From Arctopsyche grandis (lineage: Eukaryota; Arthropoda; Insecta; Trichoptera; Hydropsychidae), in contig NC_135362.1 in the NCBI RefSeq assembly GCF_051622035.1, positions 22,157,001 through 22,221,000 of the forward strand: a stretch of DNA of 64,000 bases, in the 5' to 3' direction. This document shows positions 3,268 through 56,568 of this stretch, in pieces. The stretch's first letter is position 1; the number at the start of each line of letters is the position of its first letter. A program made the position numbers and the translations under genes. The notes beneath the pieces are model-generated. The model was not told where the DNA came from and ran no database searches. It worked only from the letters and a program-made list of their open reading frames with translations.

Positions 3268-3760
3268 TTTGTCACATAAAGGCTTTTCCTCCCGTATTCT
3301 TGTTCCTGCTGTATCCTGCTCGCGCAAATTAAGTGAGTATGTACGTGAGGGTTCGGTGATTACTAGTCAAATGTGAACCGGTCACAGGACAACCAGTCGC
3401 TCTAGATCGGTCACACGTGATCACCCGTCACACTAAAACTGGTCACGAGAAAACTGGTCACACCCTTAAACTGGTCATACCCTAAAATCGGTCACGAGAA
3501 AACTGGTTGACCGATTTTAGGGTGTGACCAGTTTTCTCGTGACCAGTTTTAGGGTGTGACCAGTTTTAGTGTGACCGATCTAGAGTGGTTGTCCTGTGAC
3601 TTATTTACATATGACCAGTAGTCCGTTTACCGTACGTGAGTATGTACCGTTTACCATGCACCTTTTTTTTTTGATCTTTCGACTTAAGATCTTTCGATTT
3701 TCGATCTTTGCCTTCCGATATTTGAGTTTTCCGGCGTTTCACATTCGGGCTCATCATGGA
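3268..3760 (+). repeat. Fold-back element B, right half, interrupted by element A
   Basis: The sequence matches the right arm of fold-back elements also seen at about 3975-4265 and 51512-51893. It shares a TCCCGTATTC block, a CTCGCGCAAATTAAGTGAG block and an ATCTTTCGATTTTCGATC block. It is split at 3350-3631 by element A, whose 9 bp target duplication falls in this arm. Noncoding. Confidence 0.65.
3350..3631. mobile_element. Fold-back MITE A, copy 1, 9 bp target duplication
   Basis: This 282 bp element runs from GGTTCGGTGATTACTAGTC to GACCAGTAGTCCGTTTACC. It is flanked on both sides by GTACGTGAG (3341-3349 and 3632-3640). A 9 bp duplication fits the Mutator superfamily. The interior is a long palindrome built from repeats of CTGGTCACACCCTAAAA and CTGGTCACGAGAAAA, so it carries many GGTCAC/GTGACC hexamers. 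Two further copies lie at 44527-44797 and 56241-57577. There is no coding capacity. Confidence 0.8.
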
Positions 3761-13200: not shown

Positions 13201-16200
13201 TTATGACCAACTACAACATATATCGAAGACTTTCTCATAATCGACGAATCCTAGGCACAATGTCCGATGATATTCATTGGCGAATTTATTAAAATTAGAA
13301 TTTAAAACGATATAGTACACACCTTAGCAGATACCTGACATGTAGACATATGTGATAAAAAACCGACAGCAGACGATCTGGTCTCACTGCACTTTTCACA
13401 TTTGAGCTTTTTTTTAGCCATAAGTTTTTTATTCAATATTTTAAGTACTATTTTTTTTTCCGAAAGGTCCTGTAACATATGCATTTATTAATGACAAATA
13501 GAATCAATAAATGAAATAAAGTGATGAGAAAAATTCATACAATAGGCTTCTCTCCTTCCATCCACGCTAACAAATTATGCTCTTTGAATGAATGTGATGT
13601 GAAATCTCTCATCGGCATTTCATGATGACAAACTGCACACTTGCAAATATGATCTGTGATCAAAAAAAAAAAATCTGCTCTGTAAAATTATCTTTAAAAT
13701 AAGTCATTTCATAAAACAAAAAATAATTACTTTTCGTAAGTTTAATTTGATTTTGTTTTTTATTCTCTTTAGAACTATTACTAACGCAGTTAAGTTTCTC
13801 TACATTTTCTATCACAACACCACCTGGTTCTTCGACACCATGTGTATTTGTTTCATTCACAACAATATCATTTTCGATTTGATCTTCCGCTTCTGATCCT
13901 GGAGTAGATTGTTGTTGACGTCTTCGAAGATATGATTGCAACAACGATGCAATTTGATGCACACTGTCATAATCAACTATGTCTATTTTACTAGAATCTG
14001 TATCGTTAATAGAATACGTATCATTGTTCACTGTTGTATTTAAATCAGTGTCTACAGTTATATTTGCACAATTTTCTTCTGTTGCATATGCATCGAAATC
14101 TACTGTTGTATTTACATTGGTCATATTTACATCATTATATATGGTTGAATTTGCATCGGCGTCTACTATCGAAATTGTATCATTCTCTACTGTCGTATTT
14201 ACATTGGTTTCTAGTGTCATATTTACATCATAATCTATGGTTGCATTTGCATCATTGTCTACTGTTGAAACTGCATCATTCTCTACTGTTATATTTGCGT
14301 CAGTATCTGCCGTTATATTTGTATCAGTCTCTATTATAATATTTGCATAATTCTCTACTGATGCGTTTGTGTCAGCCCCTATTGATGAATCTCCATCAGT
14401 TTCTAATATTGTACTCGCATAATCATCTATCATTGAATTTGAATCATTGTCTATTTTAGTAGTTGCATTATTTTCTACTGTTGCATTTGCATCAGTTTCT
14501 ACTATTGTATTTATATTTTCTTCTATAGATAAATTGTCATTATTGTCTACTGTTGTAATTGCATCATTTTCTACATCTGTGTTTGCATCATTTTCAACAA
14601 CTATATTAATTTCCATTAATTCTTCCTCGTTTGCACCATTATCGTTTTGCACTATTAAAACTATATTACTATTTTCAGTTTCCAAATTATTTCCATCAAC
14701 CGGCATAGATGAAAAATTCTGAGAATTTATATCTGGAACACTAGAGCTAGTTTCCTCAATTTCCATGGGTTCGTCCATCTCAGCGAACATTAAATTTTTT
14801 TGAGGAATTGAATTTTCATTACATAAATTATCAGATTCAAAAACTGACACATTATTTAATTCAAGGCTAAAATCACCACCGGGAATGCAATTACTTATTA
14901 TTTCCATTTTAAGTGAATTTTCTATTTTTTTTATTTCAAGGGCTGCACTCGTATCTGTATCAATTTTCTTCATCGGACTTGATGGTTCAACCATAGAATC
15001 AGATCCAGTATAAGTTTCATCCAAGCAGTACGACTGTAAATTGGCATTATTTGAAGAATCAAAATCAGATACTCCTTCATAATTCATCGATGCATTCAAT
15101 GGAATATTGATATTTTCACATGCAGGTTCAATAGGAATTTCTTCACTGATTTGATCGCTCAAAGACATAGCAGTTTCTTCACTGATTTGATCGCTCAAAG
15201 AAATAGCAGTTTCTTCACTGATTTGATCGCTCAAAGAAATAGCAGTTTCTTCATTTTTAGTTTTTACTTCAATAGAATCAATCGATAAAAAGTTGTTTGT
15301 TTGAATTATGTTATCTGTAGAATTAATGCAAATGTTATCATTGTTGTTAGACATTGACGCATTTTCAATATCGATAGTATGTTGATCTAAAACATCGTTA
15401 CACTTCTGTATACATGCCTCTGTGGCAGATTTCGTTATATCTGAATTCGAGGAGTTATCATAAATTTGTGTTTCCGACGTATATGAACCGCCTTGTAAAT
15501 CTAATGCTGAAATTATTTTATCTAAAAAAATATCTTTATTTGTATCTGGAACCATTAAGGGCAATGTCGGTAATGAATTTTCTGACTGAGAGATATCAGA
15601 TTCTTCCGAAGTGTGTTTTTTCTTAAGATCAATATTATATTGATCTTTTTCAATCTGTCGATTGATTAATTTTGCTTTCAATTGACCGACAGCAAACTTA
15701 ATAACTTCGCATGAATTATTTTCTACTGGCTCTCCCGTTAATATTGGCGTACTTGGAGGAGGTCCTACATCCTTTGAAGCAGCCAGTGAGTTTGGCTCAT
15801 TATTATCGAGCTTTAATTTTGAATTTAACATATTATCTCTAGGCATTTTAAAATTTAAATCATCAACATTAAAACTCAACAACTCTTCAGAGGTCAAACT
15901 GTGGAAATTGTTCAATGTTTCGTTTTCAATTAAACCACTTAAAGAAGATTTCGATAGCGTTGATGAATTTTCAGATAATATTTGACTAGAATCAAATGTT
16001 GCATCTGAGGCCTCTGCTACTTTTTTTAGTGCTGGGATTTTAATATCAATCGCTGAAATCAGAAAAAGCAAAAAAATTAACATTACAGAAATGCATACGG
16101 AGTTATTAATGATGTATTTAAAATTGTTTGTTGATATTTTTACCGTTTGAAGAATTTTGAGCTTTCTCAGTTTTTTTAGGAATCAACGGGATATTAATTC

Positions 16201-17745: not shown

Positions 17746-20700
17746 CTACGGGATGTAGCTGTCCAGATGGGCTGGCCACCGGACTCTCCTGCCAGTCCGT
17801 GTGGTTGCTTGTCGGCCAGTTTCTTGCTGTGGTTCTGCATTTTCTTGGGGGGCTCTCTCTGCTCTCTCTGGGGGCTCTCCGCTGCTTTCCATGTATGCCG
17901 GCTTTATGCGGTCTACCGATACGGTGACATTGGAATCCTTAATTCTCAGTGTGAAGAACTTCGGTCCCCTCTTCAACACCCTGTATGGACCATCGTATGG
18001 AGGCTGTAACGGACCCTTGGCAGCATCGTGTCTCAGGAACACCTGATCACTGGTGTGCAGGTCTTTGAAGATAAAGGTTGATCTTGTTCCATGGCGCCGC
18101 GGTGGACTGGGTCTCAACCTCGCCATTTGGGACCGCAATCTCTCTGCTAGTTCCGCTGTGTTGGGTCCTCCGTTTCGTTGTGGAGCCAGAAACTCTCCCG
18201 GTAGCCGTAGCGGTTGACCATATACCAGTTCTGCTGACGTGGCATTAAGGTCTTCCTTCCATGCCGATCGGATTCCCAGTAACACTGTCGGTAGGGCTTC
18301 CGTCCACCCTTCGTCTTGGTGGCACATGATCGCGGCTTTAAGCTGCCTGTGGAACCTCTCTACCATCCCATTTGCTGCAGGGTGGTATGCGGTTGTCCTT
18401 ATGTGTGTCGATCCCGTCAACCTATTCAGTTCCTTGAATAGAGTGCTCTCGAATTGTCGTCCTTGATCGGTAGTTATTCGTAGGGGGCATCCGAATCTTG
18501 CAATCCAACCACTGACGAATTTCTTTGCAACCGTTTCTGCCGTGATATCTTCCATAGGGATAGCTTCTGGCCAGCGAGTAAACCTATCAACGCATGTCAA
18601 TAAGTACTTGTAACCGGCGGACTGTGGTAAGGGACCAACTATGTCTATGTGAATGTGGTCAAATCGATTTTCCGGTGGCTGGAACTCTCCCACAGGTGCA
18701 ATGACGTGCCTCGTTATTTTTGATTTCTGGCAAAATATGCACTCTTGGGCCCATCTTCTGCATTCCTTCTTCATACCCGTCCAGAAATATCGTTGGGTCA
18801 CTAATTTAGCTGATGCTTTTACCCCTGGGTGCGCCAATTGATGGATTAGTTCGAACGCCTGTTTCCTAAATTTCGCTGGCAAGTACGGCCGTTGCGTTTC
18901 TGAAGATACATCACAATAGATGGTCGTCTCTTCGCCTGGAATAGGTATCTTGGCAAACTGCTTGTCGGGATCTCGTAGCAGTTGTGACAGTTCTGTGTCA
19001 TCCTCCTGCGCTCGTGCTATTGCTTGAAAGTCCATCCCGGAAATTGCTTCTATTCTTGACAGTGCATCCGCTACCACGTTTTCTTCTCCCGATACATGTC
19101 GAACATCTGTTGTGAACTGGCCTACAAAGTCTATGTGCCTAAACTGTCTTGGCGAACATTTCTCTGGCTTCTGTTGGAACATGTATATAATAGGCTTGTG
19201 GTCAGTGAAAATAGTAAAAAATTTTCCTTCTACCATATGGCGGAAATGCCGGACTGCACTATATATTGCCAACAACTCCCGGTCGTAAGTGCTGTATCTC
19301 CTTTCTGTTCCTGACAATTTCCTTGTGAAGAATGCCAACGGCTCCCACCCTTCGGGCGTCTTCTGCTGTAGGACTGCTCCGAGTGCTACATCTGATGCGT
19401 CCGTCACCAATGCCAAGTCTGCCCCTGGTTTTGGGTGGCTGAGGAGGGCTGCGTCTGATAAGCTATCCTTGCACTTTCCGAATGCTTCTTCCAACGCGTT
19501 GGTCCATGCAATCTTTGCCTTGTCTTTCTTTTTAGATCCTTTTAGCAACTCGTTGAGGGGCGCCTGCAATTTTGCAGCACCCGGAACAAAACGCCGATAG
19601 AAGTTTATCATCCCCAAAAACTGCCTTAATTGTTCGATTGTAGCTGGTCGGGGAAATCTTTTCACCGCAGCTACTTTGTCTGCTTGGGGTTTGGTTCCAT
19701 TTTCTGACACCTCGTATCCTAGAAATCTTACAGTTTTTGCTCCGAAAACGCACTTTGCTGTGTTGACTAAAACGCCATATTCTTGAAACCGTGAAAAAAG
19801 TTTTCGTAAGTGGTTAATATGTTCTTCTTCGTTTTCTGACGCTACCAGCACGTCGTCAATATATACGTAGCAGAAATCCAATCCCCTTAGGACTTCGTCC
19901 ATAAACCGCTGGAAGGTCTGTGCCGCGTTTCTGAGTCCGAAGGACATAAACGGGAATTCAAATAACCCAAACGGGGTGGAAATAGCTGTTTTTTTTATGT
20001 CTTCATTGTGTACAGGGATTTGGTGGTATGCGCGCACGAGATCAATTGTAGAAAATAACTTCTTGCCATATAAGGTACTGGCGAAATCTTCTATATGCGG
20101 TACTGGATACCTATCTGGTATAGTGCGGGCATTCAACGCTCTGTAGTCCCCGCATGGTCTCCATTCTCCGTCGTGCTTAGGTACTAGGTGTAATGCTGAT
20201 GACCAACTACTGTCTGATGGTCGAGCGATTCCTTCGTTCAACATGGTCTTGAAAGTCTCTTTTGCGATCTGCAACTTCTCCGGTGCGAGGCGGCGCGGCT
20301 TGCAACTTGCTGGTGGTCCTTCAGTGGTTCTGATATAATGCACAGTATGATGTTTCATTGTTCTGTTTTTATTTCCTGTCGGCCGCGTTATCTCTGGAAA
20401 CTCTGTTAGTAGATGGTGAAATGTTGATGTGCCACAAATTGCTTTCACCTGCTCTACTTTTGCTGTTCCTATTGCTCGGCCCCTCACTGAAACAGTTGTG
20501 AGATTATCCATCAGTTTCGCATTTTTCAAATCAATCAAAAGACAAAAATGTTTGATGAAATCAGCGCCAATAATAGGCCTTGATACGTCGGCTATTACAA
20601 ATCTCCATTTGTATACCCGACGTAGTCCCAAGTCGACGTCTACCTCCTTCCAACCGTACGTTTTTATCGTAGATCCGTTCGCGGCGAATAGAAGGTATGA

Positions 20701-20841
20701 TGTCGCTATTTTGCGACCCGGCAATATTGACTTCGGAAGGACACACAGGTCAGAACCGGTGTCGACTAGGAACCGTAGTTTACTGACCTTGTCTGTTACG
20801 TATAGGCGGCAAGAAGTGGGGCTGGGGCTGCTTTCCGCCAT
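17746..20841 (-). CDS. pol-like frame of the LTR element
   Basis: The frame has about 1031 codons. In order it holds an aspartic protease ([11 protein letters not shown]), a reverse transcriptase with YIDD ([13 protein letters not shown]), RNase H ([14 protein letters not shown]), an HHCC-type integrase zinc site (HQLAHPG then CIFCQ) and an integrase core ([19 protein letters not shown]). This domain order is that of Ty3/Gypsy. The frame abuts gag. Confidence 0.92.
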
Positions 20842-21722
20842 TAGCGCCTGCCCTGGAAGTTTTCCGCCTGGTTAAACCTGCGCGGTGGCGTGTTCCTGCG
20901 GCCTCGGGGACTCTGTTGTCGTGGTTGCCAGCGTCGGCTCCTCGCTGGGGAGTGTGATGGCCTTGATTCTTTCCGATTCGTCTCGTTCGTTTGCAGTAGC
21001 CGTCCCATCATCGTGGTCAGGTCATCTACCTTTTGATTTAATGTTTGGAACTCTCCCCGTGTCACATACTCATCATCGGTTTGCCGCCTCTTCTCTCTGC
21101 GGTCTGTCATCGCTGCCACGTGGGGGCTGCTGTCGTACCACCTGTCTGCCTTCCTGGCCAGCTTATCCAAATCGGTTTCGTCGCTCATTGCCAGTTGCAA
21201 GCTTAGTCCCTCTGGCAGCCTGCTCTCCCACGTGGTTCTCAGCAGATCCTCCGACATTTCCTGGGCCGCCAATATCCGGAGGTCTCTCAGGAACTGTGAT
21301 GGCTTCCTGTCGCCAATTTCCTCGCGTTCGAGGAGTCTGCGATGTCTCTGTCGTTGGCCGACTCCTAACCTCTCCAAAATTTCCTTCTTCAGGAAGGTAT
21401 ATCGCTTGAGTTTCGGGGGGGCCACGTGGATGTCCCAAATCTCCGTCATCACCTCGCGAGGCAAACACGCGATTGTTCTGCAGTATCGCGTGTTTTCGCT
21501 AGTGATTCTGGCGGCTTCGAAGCTCGCCTCCATCTGTGCGAACCATATTTGGGGGTTCTCGGCCCAAAAGGGGGGGAAGGGGGGCACGGGCGCCCCCAAA
21601 AAGTCAAGATTTACCGTGCTTTGGTTGCGGTCGCTGTTCTCCGCGTTTTCCTCCATGTTGTTCTGCACATTGTTCTCCCCGCCTGCTTCGGCGGCGCCGT
21701 TGTCTGCTTCACCGTCGGACAT
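20841..21722 (-). CDS. gag-like frame of the LTR element
   Basis: This frame of 293 codons contains the [19 protein letters not shown] block found in gag proteins of Kabuki/CsRn1-like elements. A helical capsid-like middle and a basic Arg/Pro-rich C-terminus follow. No CCHC knuckle is evident. It is a structural particle protein of the fossil element. Confidence 0.85.
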
Positions 21723-22076
21723 CGTGTTTCCAAGATTGTCGGGAAGAATAGGGGGGATGGGGGTGCGCGCTGTCTATCACGTCGGGGTCACCACTGTGGG
21801 TCTCGGGGGAACAGGGTAGTTCCTCCCCCACGAGTTAGGACCGAATGGTCGAAATGACAGCTCCACTGCCGTAACCATGGCGACCGGTGTTGCCACCCTC
21901 TTCTATGGGGTCGCCACAAGATCATTTCAGTTGTACTATATGCCTACATTTCTATAATCGAACTTATACAACTATTTGATTTTTATGCTAAACCTTCATC
22001 GAAAATTGCACTTACAAATCAATGGAAATTATCATTTTGATAATTGGTAGTTATCATTTTGAGTTCAATTCAAACG

Positions 22077-41288: not shown

Positions 41289-41786
41289 ATGGAATGTCGA
41301 CTTTGTTTGCAAATAATAACACCTACTGATTTGTCTGTTTCAATCCGAGACAATATCCAATCACTTCCTGAACAAATTCGGAAATGCTGTCAGCTACAGG
41401 TCGACTCTTTTCAATACAAGCAATCGAAAACTTGTTTAATGTATCCTTTTTCAACAAACTAAACTGAAGTAATTCCTTTGCAGGTGGCGAAAAACGATAG
41501 ACTTCCAGATAAAATATGCTCGTTGTGTCAATCCAAGTTGATATTGTTTTTAAATTTTAAAAATATATGTACTGAAAGTGAAAATAAGCAGATATCCAGA
41601 TTATACAAGTGTTCAAATATGAAAGTAGAAGAGATTGCGCTAGAAGATTTAAGTTGGGAACAAATGGAAACTGATTCCAAGTCCACTACCTCTATTGACG
41701 AAGATACCAATAATCAGCAAACATGTGTTTTGAAAGAAGATGCCAACATCAAGTCTTCAAGTTTCAAAACTGAGGAAGTTTCACTG
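41289..41786 (+). CDS. ZAD-domain zinc-finger protein, 5' exons only
   Basis: Two exons, 41289-41399 and 41484-41786, join as CCQLQ-VAKNDRLPD and give 138 residues. MECRLCLQ and KICSLCQSKL supply the two CxxC pairs of a ZAD (zinc-finger associated domain), an insect dimerisation module usually at the N-terminus of C2H2 transcription factors. An acidic linker (SWEQMETDSKSTTSIDEDT) follows, then a donor at 41787. No C2H2 finger exon is found downstream, apart from a tiny orphan fragment at about 54660-54713. The gene may be truncated by transposons, or its finger exons may lie outside what I can recognise. Confidence 0.75.
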
Positions 41787-42033: not shown

Positions 42034-42182
42034 AGAGCGGACCCAGAACGCGCCGTTCATTGTTCAATTGTTGTAAATGCATTGTTAAAGGTTCGCCGAA
42101 CCTTTTTTTTTGGACTTTAGCTTTGTAAATAGAGCCAAACCGCCCCGATTCCTGGAAAAAGCACGGTCTCTATCCGCGCTCT
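42034..42182 (+). repeat. 150 bp hairpin/T-run element, copy 1
   Basis: It contains a perfect hairpin AAAGGTTCGCCGAACCTTT followed by a T run, then TTTGTAAATAGAGCCAAACC and TTCCTGGAAAAAGCACGG. It starts AGAGCGGACCC and ends GCGCTCT. Other copies are at 47253-47403 (plus) and 45825-45960 (minus). Confidence 0.65.
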
Positions 42183-42958
42183 AGTTATTACTGTTCAAAA
42201 ATGCTTACAAAGAAATGTCAATTTATGTTCAGACAAATATACGTACGTACATATTATAATAAATTATAAAACTGAATTCCATTGACTAGTATATTAGTGA
42301 TTAAGTATTATTTAATAACTTCATTTCGAATCTATAATTACATTTTAAATTCGTAGGGACAGTCCTTAAAAAAAAAAAAAAAAACAATATAAAGTTAGCA
42401 ATTTCAGATATTCCAAATAAAAATAACCTGAAAACGCAATTAGACCGCTGAACTTTTAGGATTTTGGACTTTTCACATTCGTTGTCCAACAAGCGAAAGG
42501 TTTTCAATTGCCTCGTAAAGTACGGCAGATCCTATCGTATCTGAAATGTAATTTTTACCAATCGTCCTATAAGAGCAACTTCTGTCTCGCTCTCATTATT
42601 ATTACATGCGAAATCTGCTCAGATTCACGCACTACCCAGCAAATTCCTAATTTGCCTCTCCCTTCAACCGATGCTTATTTCGGGCTAAGTAGAGGGTACA
42701 CAAGGCTGTGGTGGTGTTTTCAAAAAATCATAGAATGCAAATACATATACAATACGTTGGTAGAATCTACATTAAAGCAATAAACTGGGACACTTGGTTG
42801 TCCTGAATGGTTTGTTATGGACACTGGGATACAAGACTACGGTAAAAACACACTCGAAGTGCGGCCTGGAACGCTTAGAACGTGCGGCTGGAACGGTTTC
42901 TCCTACATTTCCATCTTCAAATATGGGAATCACTGTCAATCGTATGTGAATATATATT
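42183..42958. other. Intergenic stretch
   Basis: Short frames only; no recognised domain or transposon terminus. Confidence 0.3.
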
Positions 42959-44146: not shown

Positions 44147-44846
44147 GTGACCATTCGTTCTGTTTTTACTAGTACAGTGCTGGTTTTTTGAGTATCTGTC
44201 CTAGTACAACCAGTGCACTTTTTTTTATCTAATAGATGAATTTTAATATACAAAACCTTCAGCGAAAATCATGTCTCATACAAAAATATTGGCAAATTAG
44301 TCAAATATTGTCTTTGTTTACCAGGAACATATGCATCTGCCGAAAGATTTTTTCTTCGATGAAAATTTTTGTTCCGGTGATAAAACGCTATATTGAATGT
44401 TAAAACTCTAAAATGTTTGCTAATCGATAAGAATAATTTTAACCAGTTCTGCGTAGAATTTTATAAGAGCGTCAAAGAAAATTTATTCTTTATGTAAGCC
44501 TTTATTAATGGAAGTAATTAAAAATGGTAAACGGACTACTAGTCATATGTGAACCAGTCACAGGACAATCGGTCACACGTAATCACCCGTCACACTAAAA
44601 CTGGTCACGAGAAAACTGGTCACACCCTAAAATCGGTCACGAGAAAACTGGTTGACCGATTTTAGGGTGTGACCAGTTTTAGGGTGTGACAAGTTTTCTC
44701 GTGACCAGTTTTAGTGTGACGGGTGATCACGTGTGACCGATCTAGCGCGACCAGTTGTCCTGTGACCGGTTCACATTTGACTAGTAATCACCGAACCTTA
44801 AAAAATATATAAAATATCCTGGTTTTCAATTCGAAAGAATGGTCAC
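44147..44846 (+). mobile_element. hAT-like remnant carrying fold-back A
   Basis: The ends GTGACCATTCG and CGAAAGAATGGTCAC are inverted. The plus strand at about 44320-44480 encodes TYASAERFF and LKCLLIDKN pieces of a hAT C-terminal domain, with breaks. It is interrupted by element A at 44527-44797. No clear 8 bp duplication is found. Confidence 0.5.
44527..44797. mobile_element. Fold-back MITE A, copy 2
   Basis: The ends GGTAAACGGACTACTAGTC and GACTAGTAATCACCGAACC, with the same palindromic GGTCAC-rich interior as copy 1, identify it. The flanks ATTAAAAAT and TTAAAAAAT are a near match, possibly a worn 9 bp duplication. Confidence 0.75.
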
Positions 44847-45197
44847 ATTGTGTCACATGCATACACATTGTGTGTGCGATACATAAAGGCACCTTACACG
44901 ATCAATATTACTGACGTTTACCTTCGGATCCTACAAGGTCAATAATATCGTAATTACTTCGAAGCTATTCTTGAACGTGTAAACTGTCGAGAATATTTAG
45001 AGTGGAGGGGATACTGTCACTAATACTTTGGCGTGCAGTAGTGGCAGTATTATTGATCGTGTATTGTCCGCTTAAGCATCCGAGTTGCGGGCATTTAATA
45101 CCAAAAGTGGAGGGGGTACTGTCAGTATACTGAGCGTGTGGCGTGTCGGGTGCGCTGCGTCAATATTACGTCAATCATTGGTGAATAGTGTGTCAAC

Positions 45198-48100
45198 ATG
45201 GAAGACCCTACGTACTATAACGAGCCTTCAAGCCGTGATAGTGACACAGAATCACCTGCGGACAATTTGTCAAATAGCGATGCGAAACTCCTTCGAAAAT
45301 TTATCGAGAACTATGAAACGCTTCCGCTCCTGTGGGATCAGACTCATCCAGATTATTGCAATAAATTCAAGAGGAATGCCGCACTTGGCAAGTTATTGCG
45401 TATTTACATTCGATTGAAACCGGGAGCGACTGTTATCGACGTCAAGAGAAAAATCAACTCGCTGCGTTCTAACTACCGCAAGGAACTGAAGAAGATTATA
45501 GCATCGAAAAGTTCCGGTGATTCACCAGATGACGTATATTCTCCTACATCCTGGACGTTCTACGCACTGAATTTTCTGGACAAGATTGAACAGCCAGAGA
45601 ATTCTCACCAAAACAACCAGTACCGACTAGTTGAAATTGCGGTACGTCACCAATGCTTTGCCCACTTTGATTAAGTTATTATTATTGACTAGTGTTGTAC
45701 CCGATGAAGTATCGGCTCAAGTGCAGATCCGAGTCAGTGTGTAAGTGTATGTGTGTATTTGACGTAAGATCCGAAATGTCCGCCACGGCAGTATTGTCAG
45801 TGTAATAAGTAGACACCGGATAAACACAGTGCTTTTTCCAGGAATCGGGGCGGTTTAGCTCTATTTACAAAGCTAGAGTAAAAAAAAAACGTTCGGCAAA
45901 CCTTTAACAATGAAATGAACAATACACAGCACCCTCTGGGTCCGTTTTTTTCAAGACGGCATCTTGGTTTTCCGGTCTTTAGTAATAAGAAACCGCTTTA
46001 ATTTCTCGAGAATAATAATTTGTCGGCTCACAAACGGAGATACGTGCTTTCGTTTTTGGTTCATTGAAAATGTGTGGATGTGAGCGAAACGAAAGCCGAA
46101 ACGTCGATTTGGTACATGTCGCGGGGTTGGGGATCATTGGTCACAAAGCGCTCCCCCAAAAGTCACTAAAATCTTTATAACGGAACATCTGGCCGCCGAA
46201 AAGTCCATCATACTAACGAAAACTCGAGTGCCAAATATTCCGCATTCACGGTTTTCATAGCAAAAATTGTCTTTGTGACCATCGCAATGTGAGTAATAAT
46301 CCAATTACCAAGTCGCGGATTATTTACATTGTACTTTGATTATTTACAAGAATTTGTGTGTAAGAATTCGTTTCTGACGGTAATTGGAGAGAATTGCTCA
46401 ATATACATAGATGCGGGATAATGACAATTTAATTCAAGTGTTTTTTCATTGCACTGGCAATACTACCGTGGCGACCATTTTGGATCTTACGTCAGAACAG
46501 ACACTCGCTATTCTAAATGATTACCAGTTTTTTTTTTTCACTCGTTTGCGTTTTCAATTCGTTTATGGTTCACCAAGAGAGGTTTGTGGATCCGAATTAT
46601 AGTAAATTGCATAATTAAAATGTTGAGAATATGTGGATGCGAGCGAAACGGAAGCTCAAACGTCAAATACACACACACACACACACACACACACACTGAA
46701 CAGCCACTGACTCGGATCTGCACTTTAGCCATGATATCATCACATGGCTGTTGGCCAATTAAGTTATTAAATAAAATTAGATTAAAAGAAATGTGTTGGT
46801 CCTGTGTTCGATCCGCACGCGGTCGAATTTTTTTCAAATACCTTTTAAATATATTTTATTTAATTTTTATATTTAATTGTTTAATATGAAAAAAAAATTC
46901 GGATGGGACCAACCCATGACTTTGTCTATGTATTTGAAGAATATAAGAAGGTCACAAAATGAAATTCGATAATTAAACATACATACACGTTCACACATAC
47001 CGGTTATGGCAGCGTTTTCGATACAAATTGAGCGCAAATGTAGGGAAAATTACATAAGACAAAAGTTCTACTTCCGGTTTTTGGATTTTGTTCGAAATTT
47101 TGTTATTACTTAAAATCACTATAAATATTATACACATTAAATAACAAGAAAATAAAAATAATTTTAAAGGTCAAAATTAAATAATGAATATTGTTTTACA
47201 AAAAAATACTTCTTCTGGTTTACGAATTCTGACCAAAACCTTATCACTGTAGTGAGCGGACCCAAAGCGCGCCTTTCATTGTCCAATTGTTCGCCGTGCT
47301 TTGTTAAAGGTTCGCCGAACCTTTTTTTTTGCACTCTAGCTTTGTAAATAGAGCCAAACCGTCCCGATTCCTGGAAAAAGCACGCTCCCTATCCGCCCTT
47401 TACTTATCAGCTCTAAGTTAGTACATTAAGAATACAAATATATATTTTTGTCTGAGAATGTTTGTTCGCGGAAACATATTTAACACGTACGTATTCTTTT
47501 CACAATGTTACTTCTTTACTGTAGCAGTCGCAAAGGTTTTCATTTTCTTTGTATCTGTTATGACGTTTTTAAAGTTAAATTTGTAAAAACTTTTGTTAAT
47601 TTAAATTGGTTTGTGGAAAACACCAAATCTGGAAGCAAGAATCCCAGAAATATTTTCGAGCTCTCGATAGCTTTCTGTTGAGTTCATATTGGGATAGAGT
47701 CAACGATTTTTACAAAGTTTATTATATGTATGTACAGTCCCTTACCAGAATATTACGCCACCCCTATCGAGATGCGTTTGGGTAAATTTGTCACGGTCGT
47801 AAATAACTCATTATGGGAGCTTTTGGCCTCATTTTTTTTGTGATCTTATCCTTAAATGCAACTCTATTCACTAGCAAAAAATATCGGTGGATTATCCCTC
47901 AAAAGGTCTTCAAAAACAAAAGAAAGATGTTTGAAATCGGTTTGCGTCTGAATTTTGTTCAATATTGACGTGCGTTTCCGTTAAAATCATTCATTATTTT
48001 GTGAAAAGCACTGTGTTTTTTTCTCTTTTACTGCAACTTTATCATATTTCTAAGGTAAGTTGGTATTTAATATCTCGAAATTTTACTTTTTTTTATGATT

Positions 48101-51100
48101 TAAATTGCTTGTAAAACTTTTATTGGATTTTTTTAGATGGGTAGAAAATCAGATCTTTCTATAGAAAAAATTGCAAGCATTACATCATTATTAAATACAG
48201 GAAAGTTTTCTCAAAACAAAATCGCGACAATGGAGGGTGTTAGTAGGGCGTCTATTAGAAAAATAAAACAAAATCTGGAGACTGATTGCGACCCCACACT
48301 CAAGCGGCGAGCTAATAGTGGTACTAAAAAAAAATTTGGCCCTCGTGTGGATCGAAAAATCGCCAGGCTTGTTCCCAAGAATCGATTTATTACAAAAAAA
48401 AATATTCAACAACAATTAAAGGACGAAAACGTGAAATATCTACGTCAACAGTACGACTTCGTTTGGTCTCATATTAATCACATATTAATGATTTTGTAAA
48501 TTTAGTCTAATTTCATAATTATTTTTTTTCATATTAAATTAACAGTTTCCAATCATTCAGAGAGAAGTTTTGATGGTGTCTGGCCCAATTTAAACGAGAT
48601 TTTCGCATTATTTTGGTCAACATTGGCTTCTTTGCAGGTAGCCGTACTTTCAATCCAGCTTGGACCAAACGACGTCGTATTGTTGACGTAGATATTTCAC
48701 GTTTTCGTCCTTTAATTGTTGTTGAATATTTTTTTTTGTAGTAAATCGATTCTTGGGAACAGCCTGGCGATTTTTCGATCCACACGAGGGCCAAATTTTT
48801 TTTTAGTACCACTATTAGCTCGCCGCTTGAGTGTGGGGTCGCAATCAGTCTCCAGATTTTGTTTTATTTTTCTAATAGACGCCCTACTAACACCCTCCAT
48901 TGTCGCGATTTTGTTTTGAGAAAACTTTCCTGTATTTAATAATGATGTAATGCTTGCAATTTTTACTTTATCTATGTACGTAGTAACAATAGATGAAGTT
49001 TTGTGATCATGCGAAAATTCGAACTCGAGATTTTGACTGATTCGAACTCAGAATCGATTACTGACCACGTTTTAATGATCTAGAAAAAATGTGTGTGTGT
49101 GTGTCTGTGTACTTTGGGGATTTTTTCAACACCGTTAGTCCTATCGAACCGAAACTTAGTATCGGTTAATGAAATTTTTATAGACACTACGTAAATTTTT
49201 TCAAATTTTTAAGTTGACCGGAAATGGTACCTCCCCTTATAGGTGTCCTCTTTTTTTTATGTTTTTGAATTCGATTTTCTCCCAAACTACTAACTGAATT
49301 GGACTGATTTTTTTTTACATGTACTAGAAATAATAATTTTTATAATTTTATATTTTTTAAATCTTTTTATCTGAACCGGAAGTAGTACTTTTACTCTAGA
49401 GAATCGAGGTTTTTTATGTTTTTCTCAAAACCCTTTTGATTTATCGAACTGAAATTTCATATCGATCAGTTTAAGCTCAATACCAAGTTATGTATAAAAT
49501 TTGGTAAGCGTCCGTCAACCGAAAGTGGCAGTTTACTCTTGTTCGATTTGTCTTCCACTATTTTTTTCGACCCCTTAAACATGTGTGGTCTTCACGGAAA
49601 AATTCAAGTATAATTCTTGTATCAATGTGATTAAAATAAAAAAAAATCACTAAATTTAATAAACCGGAAGTGGGATTTTTTCCCTTCCGGAAGCATCCGG
49701 AAGGAAGGTCAAAAATGTTGTCGCCTGGATCCTGACCACACCCCTGAACGTATTAAGCTGAAAATTTATATTTATATTCTTTATGTACTAACTTAGATTT
49801 GGTAACGTTTTGGTCAGAATTCGTAAACCGGAAGTAGTATTTTTTTTAAAAACAATATTTCATTATTTTTTCATTATTTTATTTTGACCTTTTAAATTAT
49901 TTTAAGCTTCTTGATATTTATTGTGTATAATAGAGATATTGATTTTAAGTAAAAATAAAAAATAAAACCATCAAATTTAATGAACCGGAAGTGGGATTTT
50001 CTCCTATTAGAAAGGTCAAAAATGTTGTCGCCTGGATCCTGTCCACGCCCCTGAACGTATTAAGCTGAAAATTTATATTTGTGTTGTTTATGTACTAACT
50101 TAGATTTGGTAACGTTTTGGTCAGAATTCGTAAACCGGAAGTTGTATTTTTTTTAAAAACAATATTTCATTATTTTTTAATTATTTTATTTTGACCTGTT
50201 AAATTATTTTAAGCGTCTTGATATTTATTGTGTACAATAGAGATAGTGATTTTAAGTAAAAATAAAAAATAAAACCATCAAATTTAATGAACCGGAAGTG
50301 GGATTTTCTCCTATTAGAAAGGTCAAAAATGTTGTCGCCTGGATCCTGTCCACGCCCCTGAACGTATTAAGCTGAAAATTTATATTTGTGTTGTTTATGT
50401 ACTAACTTAGATTTGGTAACGTTTTGGTCAGAATTCGTAAACCGGAAGTAGTATTTTTTTTAAAAACAATATTTCATTATTTTATTTTGACCTTTTAAAT
50501 TATTTTTATCCTCTTGATATTAAATGTGTATAATAATTATACTGATTTTAAATAATTAAAAAAATTTGAACGAAATCCGCCAACCGGAAGTAGAAATTTT
50601 GTCTTGTGCAAGTATTTGCATATATTTGCGCTCAATTTGTATCGCTATCATAGTTATTAGTTCAATATCGAATTTTGTTTTGTAACCTTCTTATATTCCT
50701 CAAATACATAGATAAAGTCATGGGTTGGTCACACCCGAATTTTTTCTTTAGAAAGATCTGATTTTCTACCCATCTAAAAAAATCCAATAAAAGTTTTACA
50801 AGCAATTTAAATCATAAAACAAAGTAAAATTTCGAGATATTAAATACCAACTTACCTTAGAAATATGATAAAGTTGCAGTAAAAGAGAAAAAAACACAGT
50901 GCTTTTCACAAAATAATGAATGATTTTAACGGAAACGCACGTCAATATTGAACAAAATTCAGACGCAAACCGATTTCAAACATCTTTCTTTTGTTTTTGA
51001 AGACCTTTTGAGGGATAATCCACCGATATTTTTTGCTAGTGAATAGAGTTGCATTTAAGGATAAGATCACAAAAAAAATGAGGTCAAAAGTTCCCATAAT

Positions 51101-54100
51101 GAGTTATTTACGACCGTGACAAATTTACCCAAACGCATCTCGAGAGGGGTGGCGTAATATTCTGGTCAGGGACTGTAAGTCTAAAAGCTTTGTCTGTGAC
51201 GAATACGTATGGGGACAGTTTATTTTGTGTTGGGTAAAGATGCTGGTCCTGGTAAATTCAGAGCTTTTTTTGCATAAATTCTCTAAATTTGGAATATGTG
51301 CAACGCACTTCCATCTGAAATACGACCGTTAATTTTCGCGTCCACCATTACGAACGAAAATAATGTTGTATGTATGATGCTGTATGGTGTTTTCTGTCGA
51401 TTGCCACTATTTTGAAAAATTATTGTCGAGATCCATATTCACGAACGGTTTCACGTCACTCATCTAGTGTTCTTGGTGTTACGGGGCGCTCCGCTACAAA
51501 TCGCTGCAAACGGGGTCTACGTGACGAGCCAGAATGTTAAATTACAGAAAACACAAATATCGGAAGGCAAAGATCGAAAATCGAAAGATCTTAAGTCGAA
51601 AGATCAAAAAAAGGGTGCATGGTAAACGGTACATACTCACTTAATTTGCGTGAGCAGGGTACAACAGGAACAAGAAGAACAGGCTATTCCTCCCGTATTC
51701 TGCGCGCGCACATTAATACGGGAGGAAAAGCCCATTCCTCTTGTTCCTGTTGTATCCTGCTCGCGCAAATTAAGTGAGTATGTACCATGCACCCTTTTTT
51801 TTATCTTTCGACTTTAGATTTTTTGATTTTCGATCTTTGCCTTCCGATATTTGCGTTTTCTGTAATTTAACATTCTGGCTCGTCACGGAGACCGCTGCAA
51901 ACGACGCGGCTGCAATGCTCATTTCATACTTTTATGTCGATTTTTGCCTTTTTAACAATTGCCAATCATCAATGCACATCGGAATGTCATCTACGCAACC
52001 CAAAGAATATCTCGTCTCGTACATGCTTAAATTAAAACAGTCGCAATCTCGTCGAGACGTCAAATACCGAAATGCAGCCGCGTCGTTTGCAGCGATTTGT
52101 AGCAAACCCGTTTTGACACTTATGATACAAGTCTCGAATTATAACACAAATCAATAGTTCCAGTCACAAACTACTAGTATGATAGTTTAATCACTTAGTT
52201 ACTAGTATGGTAGTTTAATCACAAGTTACTAGTATGGTTGTTTAATGACAAGTTATTAACCACTAAAAGTCAAGCAGTTGAATCAAAAAGTGCCTTAACA
52301 ACGGGCTGGTGGTTGTATATATAAAATCTACTGGTGAGATCAACCAATCAGAGAACAGTTTGAACACATGTCTAAATCCGAATATATTTAGAGTTTATAC
52401 ACTTAAGGTCTGACCGCACTATACGACAACCGAACGATCCGATACTTCACAACAGTGTGCGACAATATTAGGTAAACCGCACTTGAACGACAGCGATGCG
52501 ACACTGCAGTAAATTATGTCAATCATTCGTTCGATACCTCGGAGCAAAATGGACGCTATTATAGTATCTTTGATATTCGAGGAAGAAGAACAATCGAAAA
52601 AACCCAAAATATTATGGCTACATGCTATTTCAAAGTCACGAAGAAGGAGAAGGAGAATAATTGTCGCAAGGCAACCCCCCACTCAACGACACCTTGCGTC
52701 AAAGTTGGTCGAAAAATCAACTTTGACGCAAGGTGTCGTTCTACGTCATGCGAATGTCGCGCAGTGCGTTATGTCTAATATTTCATCGTTATGTCTATGT
52801 ACAATTTCATACAAACAATATTTGGTCACGTACTGTTGTGAAGTGTCTGATCGTTCGGTTGTCGCATAGTGCGGTCAGAGGCCTGACTGCACTTAGGGGT
52901 TCCAAAAAACCGCCCGAAATAAAAAGCCGGTTTTCGGTTTTTCTACAAATAAAAAATCGGTTGGACGGTTTTCACCGTTTTTAGAAAATTAAAATTTTTT
53001 TTTAAGTTTAAAATTTTTATATCGAAAAAAAAATGTAAATATACATATATTATATTAAGTTTTTTGTGAATTAAATTGAGTTATAAACATTATGAACTTT
53101 CATAAGATCATTATTTTATATTATTATTACAAATATTACAATAAATATAATTTGTATAATATATCACAGCCGTAAAATGGCAGATCCTAAATGCGCACAA
53201 ATAATTAAATGATTTAAATAAGCTACTATCAAGAATATATTATTAAAAAAATAATGTGTAACCTCGCTAAAAAACTATAATTGTGAAATAGTGAATAAAT
53301 ATTAAGAACTGCCGAGATTCAAAGATATAGATAAACAGATATCAAGGGGATAAAGACATTTCGAAGCTGTTTTTACGCATCTGTTTTAGCTTAAAAATCC
53401 AAAAACAAACCGTTGCAAATTATTGTGGATTTAAAATGCAAATTTTAAATCCACAATAAAAGTAGGTATGTAGCCTTCCAATTCCTTCGAAGAAAAATCA
53501 ATTATATTTCGGGAATTCCTATGCATTTTGCCATAAATCACTTGAGTTTACGACTACTGTTTTGTTGTTGACAAGTATGTACAAGGATTTGCGATAGTAA
53601 CGTTTTTTATACCTGAAGTTGGGTAGGTCATTGAAACTACATACTTTCAATAATATTTTATTGGTCTTCGTCCATTACTAAATCTCAAAGAAACCGCTCA
53701 AAAAAGAAAGTATGTACCGTTTTTTGTCCAAAGAAATATACGCCTATTACCTAAGAGAGTTTATACACAATTTGAAATTCATAATTGTTAATTTTGAGGA
53801 AAAAAACATTAATTAAAGAAAACCTTAAAAAGCCGGTTGATCAAGCCAAAAAGCCGGTTTTCGTTTTTTTGATAAATGGTCAAAAAGCCGGTTTTTCGGT
53901 TTCGGTTTAAACCGGCTTGGAAGCCCTAGACCGCACTATACGACAACCGAAGTGGTGCACACTATACGACAAATTTTGAATAAATCAGTAAAATTTGATA
54001 AAACCAATTATATTAGTAATAAACCAGCCATCATTTATAAAAACAAGGTTGTGTTTGCTCAACTTTGAGATGGTACAAATCGTATACATACATATTTATT

Positions 54101-54491
54101 TGTCGTGGTGTCTGGCATGAATGACATTATTAACCGATCACATATTTTTTTGCAGTATGAAGATTATGATGTGAGCAAACTGAAAGCAGAAAGAACTACT
54201 TCGCTGTCATCTATCCAGCAAAGAGAAAAACACTTTTCTGAACCACCGCGAAAGAAAAAGCGGCTGCTAGGAACTATTTCACAGCAAACTGAGCTTTTAC
54301 AAAAAGCTTGTTCATTTCTCGAGAGTTCTGAAAAACCAGAAGAAAACCCAATTATTGTCAAGTTATGGTATGAAAAACTACAAAATTTGGACCCCCTACA
54401 AAGATTGTATGCTGAAAAGGCCATAAATGATATTTTATTTGAGGCCTCCCTCGGAACTCTGGAAAGGAATTCTGTTAAAATCAATGAGTGA
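45198..54491 (+). CDS. MADF-BESS protein, two exons
   Basis: Exon 1 (45198-45641, 148 codons) encodes a MADF domain: LLRKFIENYETLPLLWDQTH, then KRKINSLRSNYRKELKKI, then SWTFYALNFLDKI. Exon 2 (54156-54491) has a KRRLL-type basic stretch (PPRKKKRLL) and a BESS-like C-terminus (LDPLQRLYAEKAINDILFEA). A GTACGT donor and a TTTTTTTGCAG acceptor join in phase 0, giving 259 residues. MADF binds DNA and BESS mediates protein contacts. The protein could be a host transcription regulator or a transposon-derived accessory protein. The 8.5 kb intron is packed with Tc1, MITE and hAT-like insertions, yet both exons remain open. Confidence 0.8.
45697..45812 (+). repeat. Short repeat, inverted partner at 46440-46735
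   Basis: AAGTGCAGATCCGAGTCAGTG and GACGTAAGATCCGAAATGT/CCGCCACGGCAGTATTGTC-like words recur in reverse complement at 46440-46735. This is a deletion form of the same element. It lies in the MADF-BESS intron. Confidence 0.55.
45825..45960 (-). repeat. 150 bp hairpin/T-run element, copy 3
   Basis: It is the reverse complement of the copy at 42034-42182: TTCCAGGAATCGGGGCGG, then an A run and a worn hairpin. Confidence 0.55.
46130..46305 (+). repeat. Repeat D, copy in MADF-BESS intron
   Basis: It shares AAAGTCACTAAAATCT, CGGAACATCTGG and AAAACTCGAGTGCCAAATATT with other D copies, especially 55863-56047. It ends AATAATCCAATTACC. Confidence 0.65.
46440..46735 (-). repeat. Longer partner of the 45697-45812 repeat
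   Basis: It is inverted relative to that copy and contains an (AC)n microsatellite at about 46670-46697. Confidence 0.5.
46890..47232 (-). repeat. Element F, outer copy
   Basis: It is the reverse complement of about 50400-50745: CCAACCCATGACTTT with CTATGTATTTGA at one end, CAAATTGAGCGCAAAT in the middle and GTTTACGAATTCTGACCAAAA at the other. Confidence 0.6.
47253..47403 (+). repeat. 150 bp hairpin/T-run element, copy 2
   Basis: The perfect hairpin AAAGGTTCGCCGAACCTTT with a following T run, then TTTGTAAATAGAGCCAAACC, is nearly identical to the copy at 42034. Confidence 0.65.
48137..48499 (+). pseudogene. Tc1-like transposase, N-terminal part, left copy
   Basis: MGRKSDLSIEKIASI and FSQNKIATMEGVSRASIRKI form the first helix-turn-helix, and a second paired-like domain begins (KNRFITKKNIQQQL). 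The frame ends by position 120, before any DDE catalytic residue. The left terminal arm runs directly into this start and includes an intron-like GTAAGT...TTTTTTTAG upstream of the ATG. Confidence 0.75.
48536..48964 (-). pseudogene. Tc1-like transposase, N-terminal part, right copy
   Basis: The minus strand repeats TMEGVSRASIRKI and goes further than the left copy (STIRRRLVQAGLKV, MRKSRLNWARHHQNFSLNDW). It stops before the catalytic domain, with a frame interruption in between. Element F separates its first codons from the right terminal arm. Confidence 0.75.
48965..50738. mobile_element. Element F, inserted in the Tc1-like fold-back
   Basis: It interrupts the right arm: GCAATTTTT lies on one side and ATTTTTTCTTTAG on the other. 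The ends ACTTTATCTATGTA and TACATAGATAAAGT are inverted. The interior holds about three tandem units of about 310 bp. A partial inverted copy lies at 46890-47232. Noncoding, family unknown. Confidence 0.55.
49640..50530. repeat. Tandem array of about 310 bp units
   Basis: AACCGGAAGTGGGATTTT recurs at about 49662, 49984 and 50290. Each copy is followed by GTTGTCGCCTGGATCCTG, CTGAACGTATTAAGCTG and TTGGTAACGTTTTGGTCAG. The last two units are almost identical, so the array is recent. Confidence 0.8.
51486..52128. mobile_element. MITE G, copy 2, split by fold-back B
   Basis: The inverted ends contain CTACAAATCGCTGCAAAC on the left and GTTTGCAGCGATTTGTAG on the right. The left end is cut by element B at 51512-51893 and resumes at 51903 with GACGCGGCTGCA, the partner of TGCAGCCGCGTC on the right. 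Confidence 0.65.
51512..51893. mobile_element. Fold-back element B, copy 3, 9 bp duplication
   Basis: The 382 bp element has ends GGGGTCTACGTGACGAG and CTCGTCACGGAGACC and is palindromic around about 51705. It is flanked by exact GCTGCAAAC (51503-51511 and 51894-51902). The 9 bp duplication again suggests the Mutator superfamily. Confidence 0.75.
52129..52405. repeat. Short tandem ACTAGTATGGTAGTTTAATC repeats
   Basis: Three to four imperfect copies of about 30 bp occur at 52170-52255 in the MADF-BESS intron. The rest is unassigned. Confidence 0.5.
52406..52880. mobile_element. MITE with Harbinger-like remnant
   Basis: The ends CTGACCGCACTATACGACAA and TTGTCGCATAGTGCGGTCAG are inverted, extending to CCGAACGATC. 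TAA precedes the left end. Inside, the plus frame MDAIIVSLIFEEEEQ with ILWLHAISKSRRRRRR resembles the N-terminal region of Harbinger nucleases; the remainder is lost. An internal hairpin (CTTTGACGCAAGGTGTCGTT and partner) lies at 52686-52741. Confidence 0.55.
52898..53929. mobile_element. Terminal-inverted-repeat element inside a second MITE copy
   Basis: The ends TAGGGGTTCCAAAAAACCG and CCGGCTTGGAAGCCCTA face each other and are followed inward by AAAAGCCGGTTTTCGG-like repeats. The flanks GACTGCACT and GACCGCACT form an imperfect 9 bp duplication inside another copy of the 52406 MITE, which resumes at 53930. Noncoding, AT-rich interior. Confidence 0.5.
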
Positions 54492-54655
54492 GAGAATACT
54501 GTTCACACTTTTTAAATCAATCCATTACCCAGCGATTAAACCTAAAATTATTGCGATACGTACATTTTGGCGAGGATACACTTCCAATGACCATAGTCCG
54601 TGGTAAGGCGAGTACTGAAAAAATATCAATAATATTGACCGTGTAAGGTTCCTAA

Positions 54656-54716
54656 TTTTATAACAAAACTTTATTTGAAAGTTCATACGACAATTCACAC
54701 TGGTGAAAAACCACAT
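54656..54716 (+). pseudogene. Orphan C2H2 finger fragment
   Basis: The plus frame reads LYLKVHTTIHTGEKPHT and then stops. HTGEKP is the C2H2 linker. Only the tail of one finger remains, just outside the right end of the possible Harbinger-type unit. Confidence 0.55.
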
Positions 54717-55860
54717 ACATAAATGTAAAGTGACAAATGTTAAGTGCTAAGTTCGCGCTAAAATATAATCTAACAATAATCTATAAAATCATACGGTTTT
54801 GCGGAAGCATGATATCTTGTTGCCAATTAGGGCTAAAACTAACATGCTCATGAACTCCCCCCTCTCGAGAGCTGTTCGACTCCTCAAATTACTGGCACAC
54901 TCCGTGGATCTCTTCAATGCCAGTTATGTTGAGTTGGTCGAACACATCCTACATAACACGATATAATTATCTGTATTATTTCCTTATTTTTCACTATACA
55001 TATTTCTTACTTGCTTTTAATTTTTTTATTATTTGTGTTATTCTTGTTTTATTTTTGTATTAAAACCACAGTGAGGCTTTGAGGCTTCCTGTAAAGTCTC
55101 TATTGTATTTTTGTACATTTTATTTTTATAAAATAAAATGTACAAAAATAAACATTGAAAAATCAAAGGCATAATTTATTTCGGCTCAAGTCGTTTTCAG
55201 ACATTTTTACGTTTTACCGAATTGTATTTTGGAGAATAAATTCATTGTATGATATTTATTAAATAATATATATTAATATTAATAAAAATTGTGAACCTCT
55301 GTATTTAGACGATATTGTTTCGAAACGAGACTAATTCACTACTTATTATTTTTCTCTTTCCACATTGAATGAGATGAGAAATTGTCTCGTAATATTTCTC
55401 GATAGATTTTGTCGTTAATAAAGTAAGTATGCAGATTATGTTTGAAAGCCTAATAATTAATTAACATTCTAATATCTGGAGTACTAATGCAGGATACCAT
55501 ATACGTATACATACATATGTACATAGTGACCCGATGTAAATCATTATATTTAAAAAAAAAAATCTATATTTTGTATTTTTTTATTTATGAAACTAATAAA
55601 ACATTACTTTTGGCAAATATCAGGCCTTTCCTCAATTTGACTTTTTTTTTAATAAGGTTAATGGCAAAGGGTTAACTATCACCGACCCTAAAATATTTGA
55701 ATTTTTAAACATGTTTATTACGATTCTATTTCACTATCGACTTGCGGACACAATTTAAATATATCGGGGGTCAAACTTCGCGAAATGTCAAAGATTCAAA
55801 GCGATTGGAAGAGTTTGTCCAAAACAATCGAAAAGTGAAACTAATATAAACCTCGTAAAA
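54717..55860. other. AT-rich stretch
   Basis: A short inverted repeat around ATTTTATTTTTATAAAATAAAAT lies at 55110-55150. No gene is supported. Confidence 0.3.
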
Positions 55861-56047: not shown

Positions 56048-56467
56048 CAAACAATGTGTACTGCGAATATTAAGAGATTGCGTGGCTCTGCTGTATTGGT
56101 AAAAACGGTTCGGTGATTATTCTGCAAAAAACGATCTAGAACACGTCACTAAAGTCTCGATCACGGAATATTTGGTACCCAAAAACTACATCAATCGAAA
56201 GACACACACGCGAAATATTGTACTCGAGTGCCAGATATTCGGTAAATGGACTACTAGTCATGTGAACCGGTAACAAGATAACCGATCGTTCTTAATCGGT
56301 CACACGTCGTCAACAAAAATGCGACCAATTTTTAATTTTTGGATATGACCAGTTTTTTCGCGACCAATTTGTGGGTGTGACCAGTTTTAGTGTGATGGGT
56401 GTCGACGTGTGACCGATCTAGAGCGACCGGTTATCCTTTTACCGGTTCACATTTGACTAGTAATCAC

Positions 56468-56568
56468 CATAGAAGTAGAATGCATAGAATGGCTCTCTCA
56501 GCCTCCAAAAATGTTGCCACAAAAACTGTGCGGCAGAGTTTGTTCATTGTTTGCTAAACTTCGTCTCT

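Follow-up and report, generated by a model that had tools for sequence, protein, structure and literature searches.

In the 64,000 nucleotides of Arctopsyche grandis DNA considered here (contig NC_135362.1, positions 22,157,001 to 22,221,000 of the forward strand; this whole stretch is called the window, and coordinates count from its first letter), a 9767-bp element at 44887-54653 is probably a PIF/Harbinger transposon that inserted at a TAA in a zinc-finger coding stretch and now carries only its MADF accessory gene, the product of which probably binds both the ends of the element and its own promoter. We put the probability of this reading at roughly 0.78, and consider the element a likely, albeit unproven, instance of a known process. 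According to the available portions of the sources (this applies to all papers cited below), PIF/Harbinger elements duplicate TWA, have inverted repeats that are mostly <60 bp and start with A or G (PMC4482050), and combine a transposase with a Myb/SANT/MADF protein (PMC4482050, PMC9710019).

The element is delimited by the following features:
44884-44886, no strand: left TAA flank (target-site duplication), from the sequence and the flank test
44887-44914, plus strand: left terminal inverted repeat, 25/28 identical to the right one, with similarity extending to 33 nt
54626-54653, minus strand: right terminal inverted repeat, defined by its match to the left repeat
54653-54655, no strand: right TAA flank, overlapping the final base of the inverted repeat

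An earlier note on this DNA had claimed inverted termini with TAA on both outer sides. The termini are confirmed, exactly at 44887 on the left and at 54640-54653 (minus strand, 1 mismatch in 14 nt) on the right, and their match is longer than that note said: 25/28, or 33 nt at 85% (pair I22). When the left 28-mer is compared with the whole window without gaps, its best inverted match is the right terminus; the runner-up (21/28) is an inner copy at 45044, and the remaining best matches to the left end in the 64 kb reach 20-21/28. The local alignment of end to end scores 41, and none of 5000 paired dinucleotide shuffles scored as high (maximum 32); 6 of 2913 random pairs of real regions did, presumably owing to the other repeats of the window. 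The TAA is clear on the left; on the right it is present, but shares its T (54653) with the end of the inverted repeat. This can be read either as a TAA duplication around ends that are asymmetric by one base or as a 2-bp AA duplication with symmetric AGG...CCT ends, the empty site being identical under both. Among 200,000 random flank pairs, 0.65% gave a TWA match with one base of play and 0.16% an exact one. The inverted repeats (28-33 nt, AGG...CCT) are short and start with A, in keeping with PIF/Harbinger.

The flanks appear to be the two parts of one interrupted C2H2 zinc finger:
54654-54722, plus strand: NFITKLYLKVHTTIHTGEKPHT followed by a stop, the right-hand portion of the interrupted host zinc finger
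44849-44860, plus strand: C-V-T-C, in frame once the flanks are joined, probably the left-hand portion of the finger

Immediately beyond the inverted repeat, the right flank reads F-x5-L-x2-H-x3-H-TGEKPH, the second half of such a finger. The window holds one other F-x5-L-x2-H-x3,4-H stretch (27754, minus strand), and the TGEK linker occurs only at the right flank. With the flanks joined and the TAA counted once, the finger frame stays open leftward through NILVFNSKEWSHCVTCIHIVCAIH and contains a C-x2-C on the left side. An in-frame C-x2-C within 12 codons and without a stop is found at 1428 of 127,760 positions (1.1%; 0.1% at the exact spacing), and because of this 1.1% coincidence we regard the left C-x2-C as a likely, not certain, part of the same finger. 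The frame kept across the joined flanks, together with the left C-x2-C, favours one insertion over two miniature inverted-repeat transposable elements (MITEs). About 3 kb upstream on the same strand lie two ZAD (zf-AD) exons (41289-41399 and 41484-41786), both open and with plausible splice sites; pattern search and Pfam detected no intact C2H2 finger between them and the element, and no C2H2 array was seen near them. It is therefore possible that the insertion struck the finger exon of a ZAD gene.

Between the ends lies a two-exon gene:
45198-45641, plus strand: exon 1, coding, ATG at 45198, MADF domain at residues 35-127 of 259, donor GTACGT
45642-54155, plus strand: intron of 8514 bp, 6939 bp in spans bounded by repeat arms and 1575 bp outside them
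54156-54491, plus strand: exon 2, coding, acceptor TTTTTTTGCAG, with a basic stretch like a nuclear localisation signal (NLS), an end that is BESS-like by eye, and the stop at 54489-54491
54249-54263, plus strand: the NLS-like RKKKR, residues 180-184, read from the sequence

Both exons are open, as had been proposed, and join phase 0 to phase 0 into 259 codons with zero internal stops; such an intact coding region is a mark of domesticated PIF genes. Of the MADF-BESS label that the gene had been given, the MADF part is firm (Pfam MADF_DNA_bdg, E 5.9e-15) and puts the product among the Myb/SANT/MADF accessory proteins of PIF/Harbinger, whereas the BESS part found no support in Pfam (no match of exon 2 at E up to 10); the C-terminal part resembles BESS by eye and is helical in a low-confidence model. 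RKKKR resembles a nuclear-import signal. A PDB sequence search gave 0 matches at E up to 1. Structure models made without an alignment were poor (mean predicted local distance difference test, pLDDT, 43 for exon 1 and 64 for exon 2), and a fold search with the exon 2 model returned 74 matches at E up to 10, none of which reached E 0.001; nothing is concluded from either. Protein and exon queries found no relatives in viral_contigs, genome_contigs, phages and plasmids, which, as viral or prokaryotic collections, say little. Splicing from ZAD exon 2 to MADF exon 2 was considered and dropped, being phase-compatible by count and otherwise unsupported.

The gene's promoter and leader are expected in the 283 bp from the left repeat to the ATG, and this stretch contains four places that resemble the core of the ends:
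44931-44950, plus strand: place 1, CTACAAGGTCAATAATATCG, from word matches
44971-44982, minus strand: place 2, partial, TTACACGTTCAA inverted, from word matches
45045-45064, minus strand: place 3, TACACGATCAATAATACTG inverted, part of pair I23, from word and inverted-pair matches
45158-45170, plus strand: place 4, GTCAATATTACG, 27 bp before the ATG, from word matches

These places, two direct and two inverted with one of the four partial, group 22 positions that match 11-mers from both inverted repeats with <=1 mismatch. The controls, 16,765 randomly placed segments of the same size that overlap one another and all lie outside the element, had a mean of 0.33 such positions and a maximum of 8. 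TCAATAWTAY, the strict form of the motif, is present 10 times in the 64 kb, three times within the two ends and three more times in the left subterminal stretch. A search of viral_contigs with the end-core pattern gave no relative; as a viral collection it says little.

From this arrangement the following mechanism can be proposed. The transposase gene would have been deleted, or would never have been present in this copy. The MADF protein carries a basic stretch that resembles a nuclear-import signal, and its probable binding site is the TTACACGRTCAATAWTAYTG core in both ends; it would also bind the weaker forms of that core between the left end and the ATG; the predicted target of the MADF domain is the TTACACGRTCAATAWTA core. 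In an active family such binding would deliver the transposase to the ends. Here, without a transposase, the same binding would place the promoter of the gene under the control of its own product, which would also act on related copies in other places. Both the protein-DNA binding and the self-regulation are predictions from the sequence.

Six-frame Pfam scans of the element (stops as X, E up to 0.1) revealed no PIF transposase and matched only MADF, HTH_7, and HTH_Tnp_Tc3_2; since they contain no DDE transposase, the element is a non-autonomous remnant at most. Neither did a PIF transposase appear at 40.0-44.9 and 54.7-59.6 kb (Pfam, E up to 1), where, besides ZAD, only a hAT dimerisation stretch and Atrophin-1 were matched, each below its cutoff, nor at 59.5-64.0 and 30.1-40.1 kb (Pfam, E up to 0.01). 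It may have decayed beyond the reach of Pfam. The Tc1-like sequence at 47.7-51.2 kb was rejected as the missing enzyme: it is nested in the intron and of Tc1 type, as shown by HTH_Tnp_Tc3_2 (E 6.1e-12) and by CAGT...ACTG ends with TA on both sides. Once the repeat-arm-bounded spans are removed (9767 minus 6939 bp) the element measures about 2.8 kb; autonomous PIF/Harbinger families average about 4.1 kb (PMC4482050). The suggestion of a Harbinger element minus its transposase thus holds for the single insertion, the PIF/Harbinger-type ends, the MADF gene and the lack of a detectable transposase, with the TAA ambiguous by one base.

Several observations weigh against this assignment. The defining enzyme was not detected, and consequently the assignment rests on the ends, the duplication, and the accessory gene. 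The duplication is one base off, or only 2 bp. Six codons more than usual separate the left C-x2-C from the F, and this C-x2-C may be due to chance; an 18-nt near-duplicate, judged by eye, could explain the six extra codons. The motif cluster is one-sided, with none of the core words in the 134 bp on the right and 6 in the intron versus 9.9 expected, and its second place is only partial.

Could each end of the outer pair instead belong to its own short MITE, the two being oppositely oriented members of one family with an ordinary host MADF gene between them? The window is rich in repeats, and the inverted inner core copy at 45045-45064, with TTAA just beyond it, makes a short left element imaginable. 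This inner copy, however, retains only about 3 of the eight outermost bases of the end and is therefore unlike a second terminus, on which account a MITE at 44887-45071 was rejected despite the adjoining TTAA; moreover, the outer pair appears to split one zinc finger and its outer flanks share TAA. We deem two MITEs improbable. An origin in another group of the PHIS superfamily (ISL2EU, Spy, Pangu) or in an unrelated superfamily earns equally little credence. The symmetric reading would give it a 2-bp AA duplication, and Pangu ends often begin with AG (PMC4482050), but Pangu duplicates ANT, ISL2EU duplicates AT and carries a YqaJ-nuclease gene, and Spy makes no duplication and inserts in AAATTT (PMC4482050); by eye, a Spy-type junction would also break the finger frame. 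In the available part of PMC4482050, Myb/SANT genes are reported in PIF/Harbinger, NuwaI and NuwaII only, and the CWG duplicated by NuwaI and the C|TNA|G preferred by NuwaII are a misfit with ACATAATTTT.

If the element is a PIF/Harbinger remnant, as we prefer, its age bears on whether selection has kept the MADF frame open. The many insertions in the intron, noted before, are real and form several layers:
45703-46741, 46889-47448, 47735-51175, 51514-51893, 52409-53927: spans of the intron bounded by repeat arms

The 6939 and 1575 bp given above were obtained by subtraction, whole spans being assumed inserted. The span at 47735-51175 is a TA-flanked Tc1-like element with 440-nt arms that are 99% complementary; its 5' half is apparently duplicated head to head and broken at about 48971-50737 by a block containing 307-bp tandem repeats rich in AACCGGAAGT. 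Another repeat family (42035-42188, 47254-47407, 45802-45950) has copies in both orientations, within and outside the intron. Eight repeat pairs were picked by hand, six of them with one member in the intron; two of these members (46125-46311 and 46207-46309) are the same, leaving five distinct repeats. With gaps left out, the six pairs are 85.9, 86.1, 86.3, 88.3, 90.2, and 94.7% identical; BLAST identities are lower, 80% for 45802-45950 (versus 85.9%) and about 89% for 51514-51902 (versus 94.7%). The two ends differ at 3/28 positions, which would be consistent with the age of the intron repeats had they been identical at first. From a rough clock (halved repeat divergence, an indel ratio of 11/121 from the same 8 pairs, and 80% of indels assumed to break the frame), the probability that the 780-nt frame stayed unbroken without selection is about 0.2-7%, and 0.014-15% across the three indel ratios tried at divergences of 0.03-0.07; the clock may overestimate the age, as the repeats possibly diverged before inserting.

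Selection on the MADF protein had been suggested from the contrast between the open frame and the insertion-laden intron. The contrast is there and hints at domestication, but with these probabilities it remains a suggestion; since the neighbouring ZAD exons are open too (the 303-nt exon alone would be intact with a probability of 15% at a divergence of 0.055), open frames are weak evidence for selection here. That the element is simply a decaying PIF copy without host function, its frame open through youth or luck, falls just short of an even chance. Its ends and TAA flanks persist, while the domesticated insect PIF genes lost theirs (PMC9710019), one nested repeat shares 94.7% identity with its partner, and the frame would stay intact without selection with a probability of 7% at a per-lineage divergence of 0.03 and 17% at 0.02; yet five of the six intron-member pairs are only 86-90% identical, the ends have diverged, insertions are layered, and that probability drops to 0.7-0.2% at a divergence of 0.055-0.07. 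A recently domesticated MADF gene that still has transposon ends, perhaps a self-regulating transcription factor, is a tentative but serious candidate: its 259-codon frame is unbroken, with good splice sites across 8.5 kb, the motif cluster lies within its own leader, and in a fish, a MADF protein derived from a PIF element binds its own locus and regulates it (PMC11893794). The equally open ZAD exons and the retained ends and flanks count against it. Rather unlikely, in our judgement, is an accessory gene midway to a host gene, which would have outlived its transposase, kept its ends and be driven by itself through its own array of binding sites.

The genes for a queuine tRNA-ribosyltransferase, NFACT-R, CCDC93, and a histone-fold protein elsewhere in the window are of general animal type and make it eukaryotic, and the ZAD domain points to an arthropod. 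Searches of the window against Rfam (gathering thresholds) and with ARAGORN gave 0 matches. For 1-30 kb, open reading frames (ORFs) of >=90 aa were catalogued; 10 selected ORFs were submitted to Pfam, 7 of them from this part. A palindromic repeat family (44601-44797, 3350-3546, 56249-56468) is 93-94% alike over two paired stretches, and its copy at 44601-44797 ends about 90 bp left of the element. An 840-aa open frame at 13660-16182 (minus strand) has degenerate asparagine/aspartate-rich repeats and a Pfam match below cutoff to the phage gp5 trimer domain, and two long open frames at 17746-21773 (minus strand) look like a Gypsy-like retroelement.

Should the midway gene be real, it would possibly repress or mark related MITEs genome-wide, and would represent domestication of the accessory gene only, a class not found in the available part of PMC9710019, which has transposase-only and paired cases. 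Such accessory-only survivals could be missed, because that survey started from the transposase (PMC9710019). New insect genes have arisen repeatedly from PIF/Harbinger elements, and a MADF gene still framed by its ends and with candidate binding sites would allow a direct test of how part of a transposon turns into a host gene that regulates itself.

Like autonomous PIF/Harbinger elements, ours has short ends starting with A or G, a TWA-type duplication, here ambiguous by one base, and a MADF accessory gene; unlike them, it has no detected transposase, and its accessory gene, which takes up almost the whole length, has an 8.5-kb intron that later insertions have filled. Insect PIF genes were domesticated as the transposase alone or with a MADF partner, and are reported without ends (PMC9710019). 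The DPLG7/DPM7, APLG-APM, and LPLG2-LPM2 pairs also contain a PIF-derived MADF gene with an intact frame, but keep the transposase partner that was not detected here; for the Anopheles and Lepidoptera pairs no ends or duplications are reported in the available text (PMC9710019), whereas our element has ends and TAA flanks. In zebrafish, the Myb-like protein encoded by Harbinger3_DR recognises a subterminal motif of 9 bp and must interact with the transposase for nuclear localisation (PMC9710019); our motif cluster resembles that motif. Harbinger3_DR has two genes, both required for transposition, and its binding was shown; here binding is predicted. By title and the opening of the abstract, with subscription papers mostly outside the scope, the papers listed included no insect MADF-only element retaining its ends. 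The nearest case is ADF-1L of the miiuy croaker, which is backed by experiments in fish while our element is known from sequence alone: it too is a MADF gene attributed to PIF/Harbinger, with a self-regulating locus and a PIF-like sequence upstream (PMC11893794).

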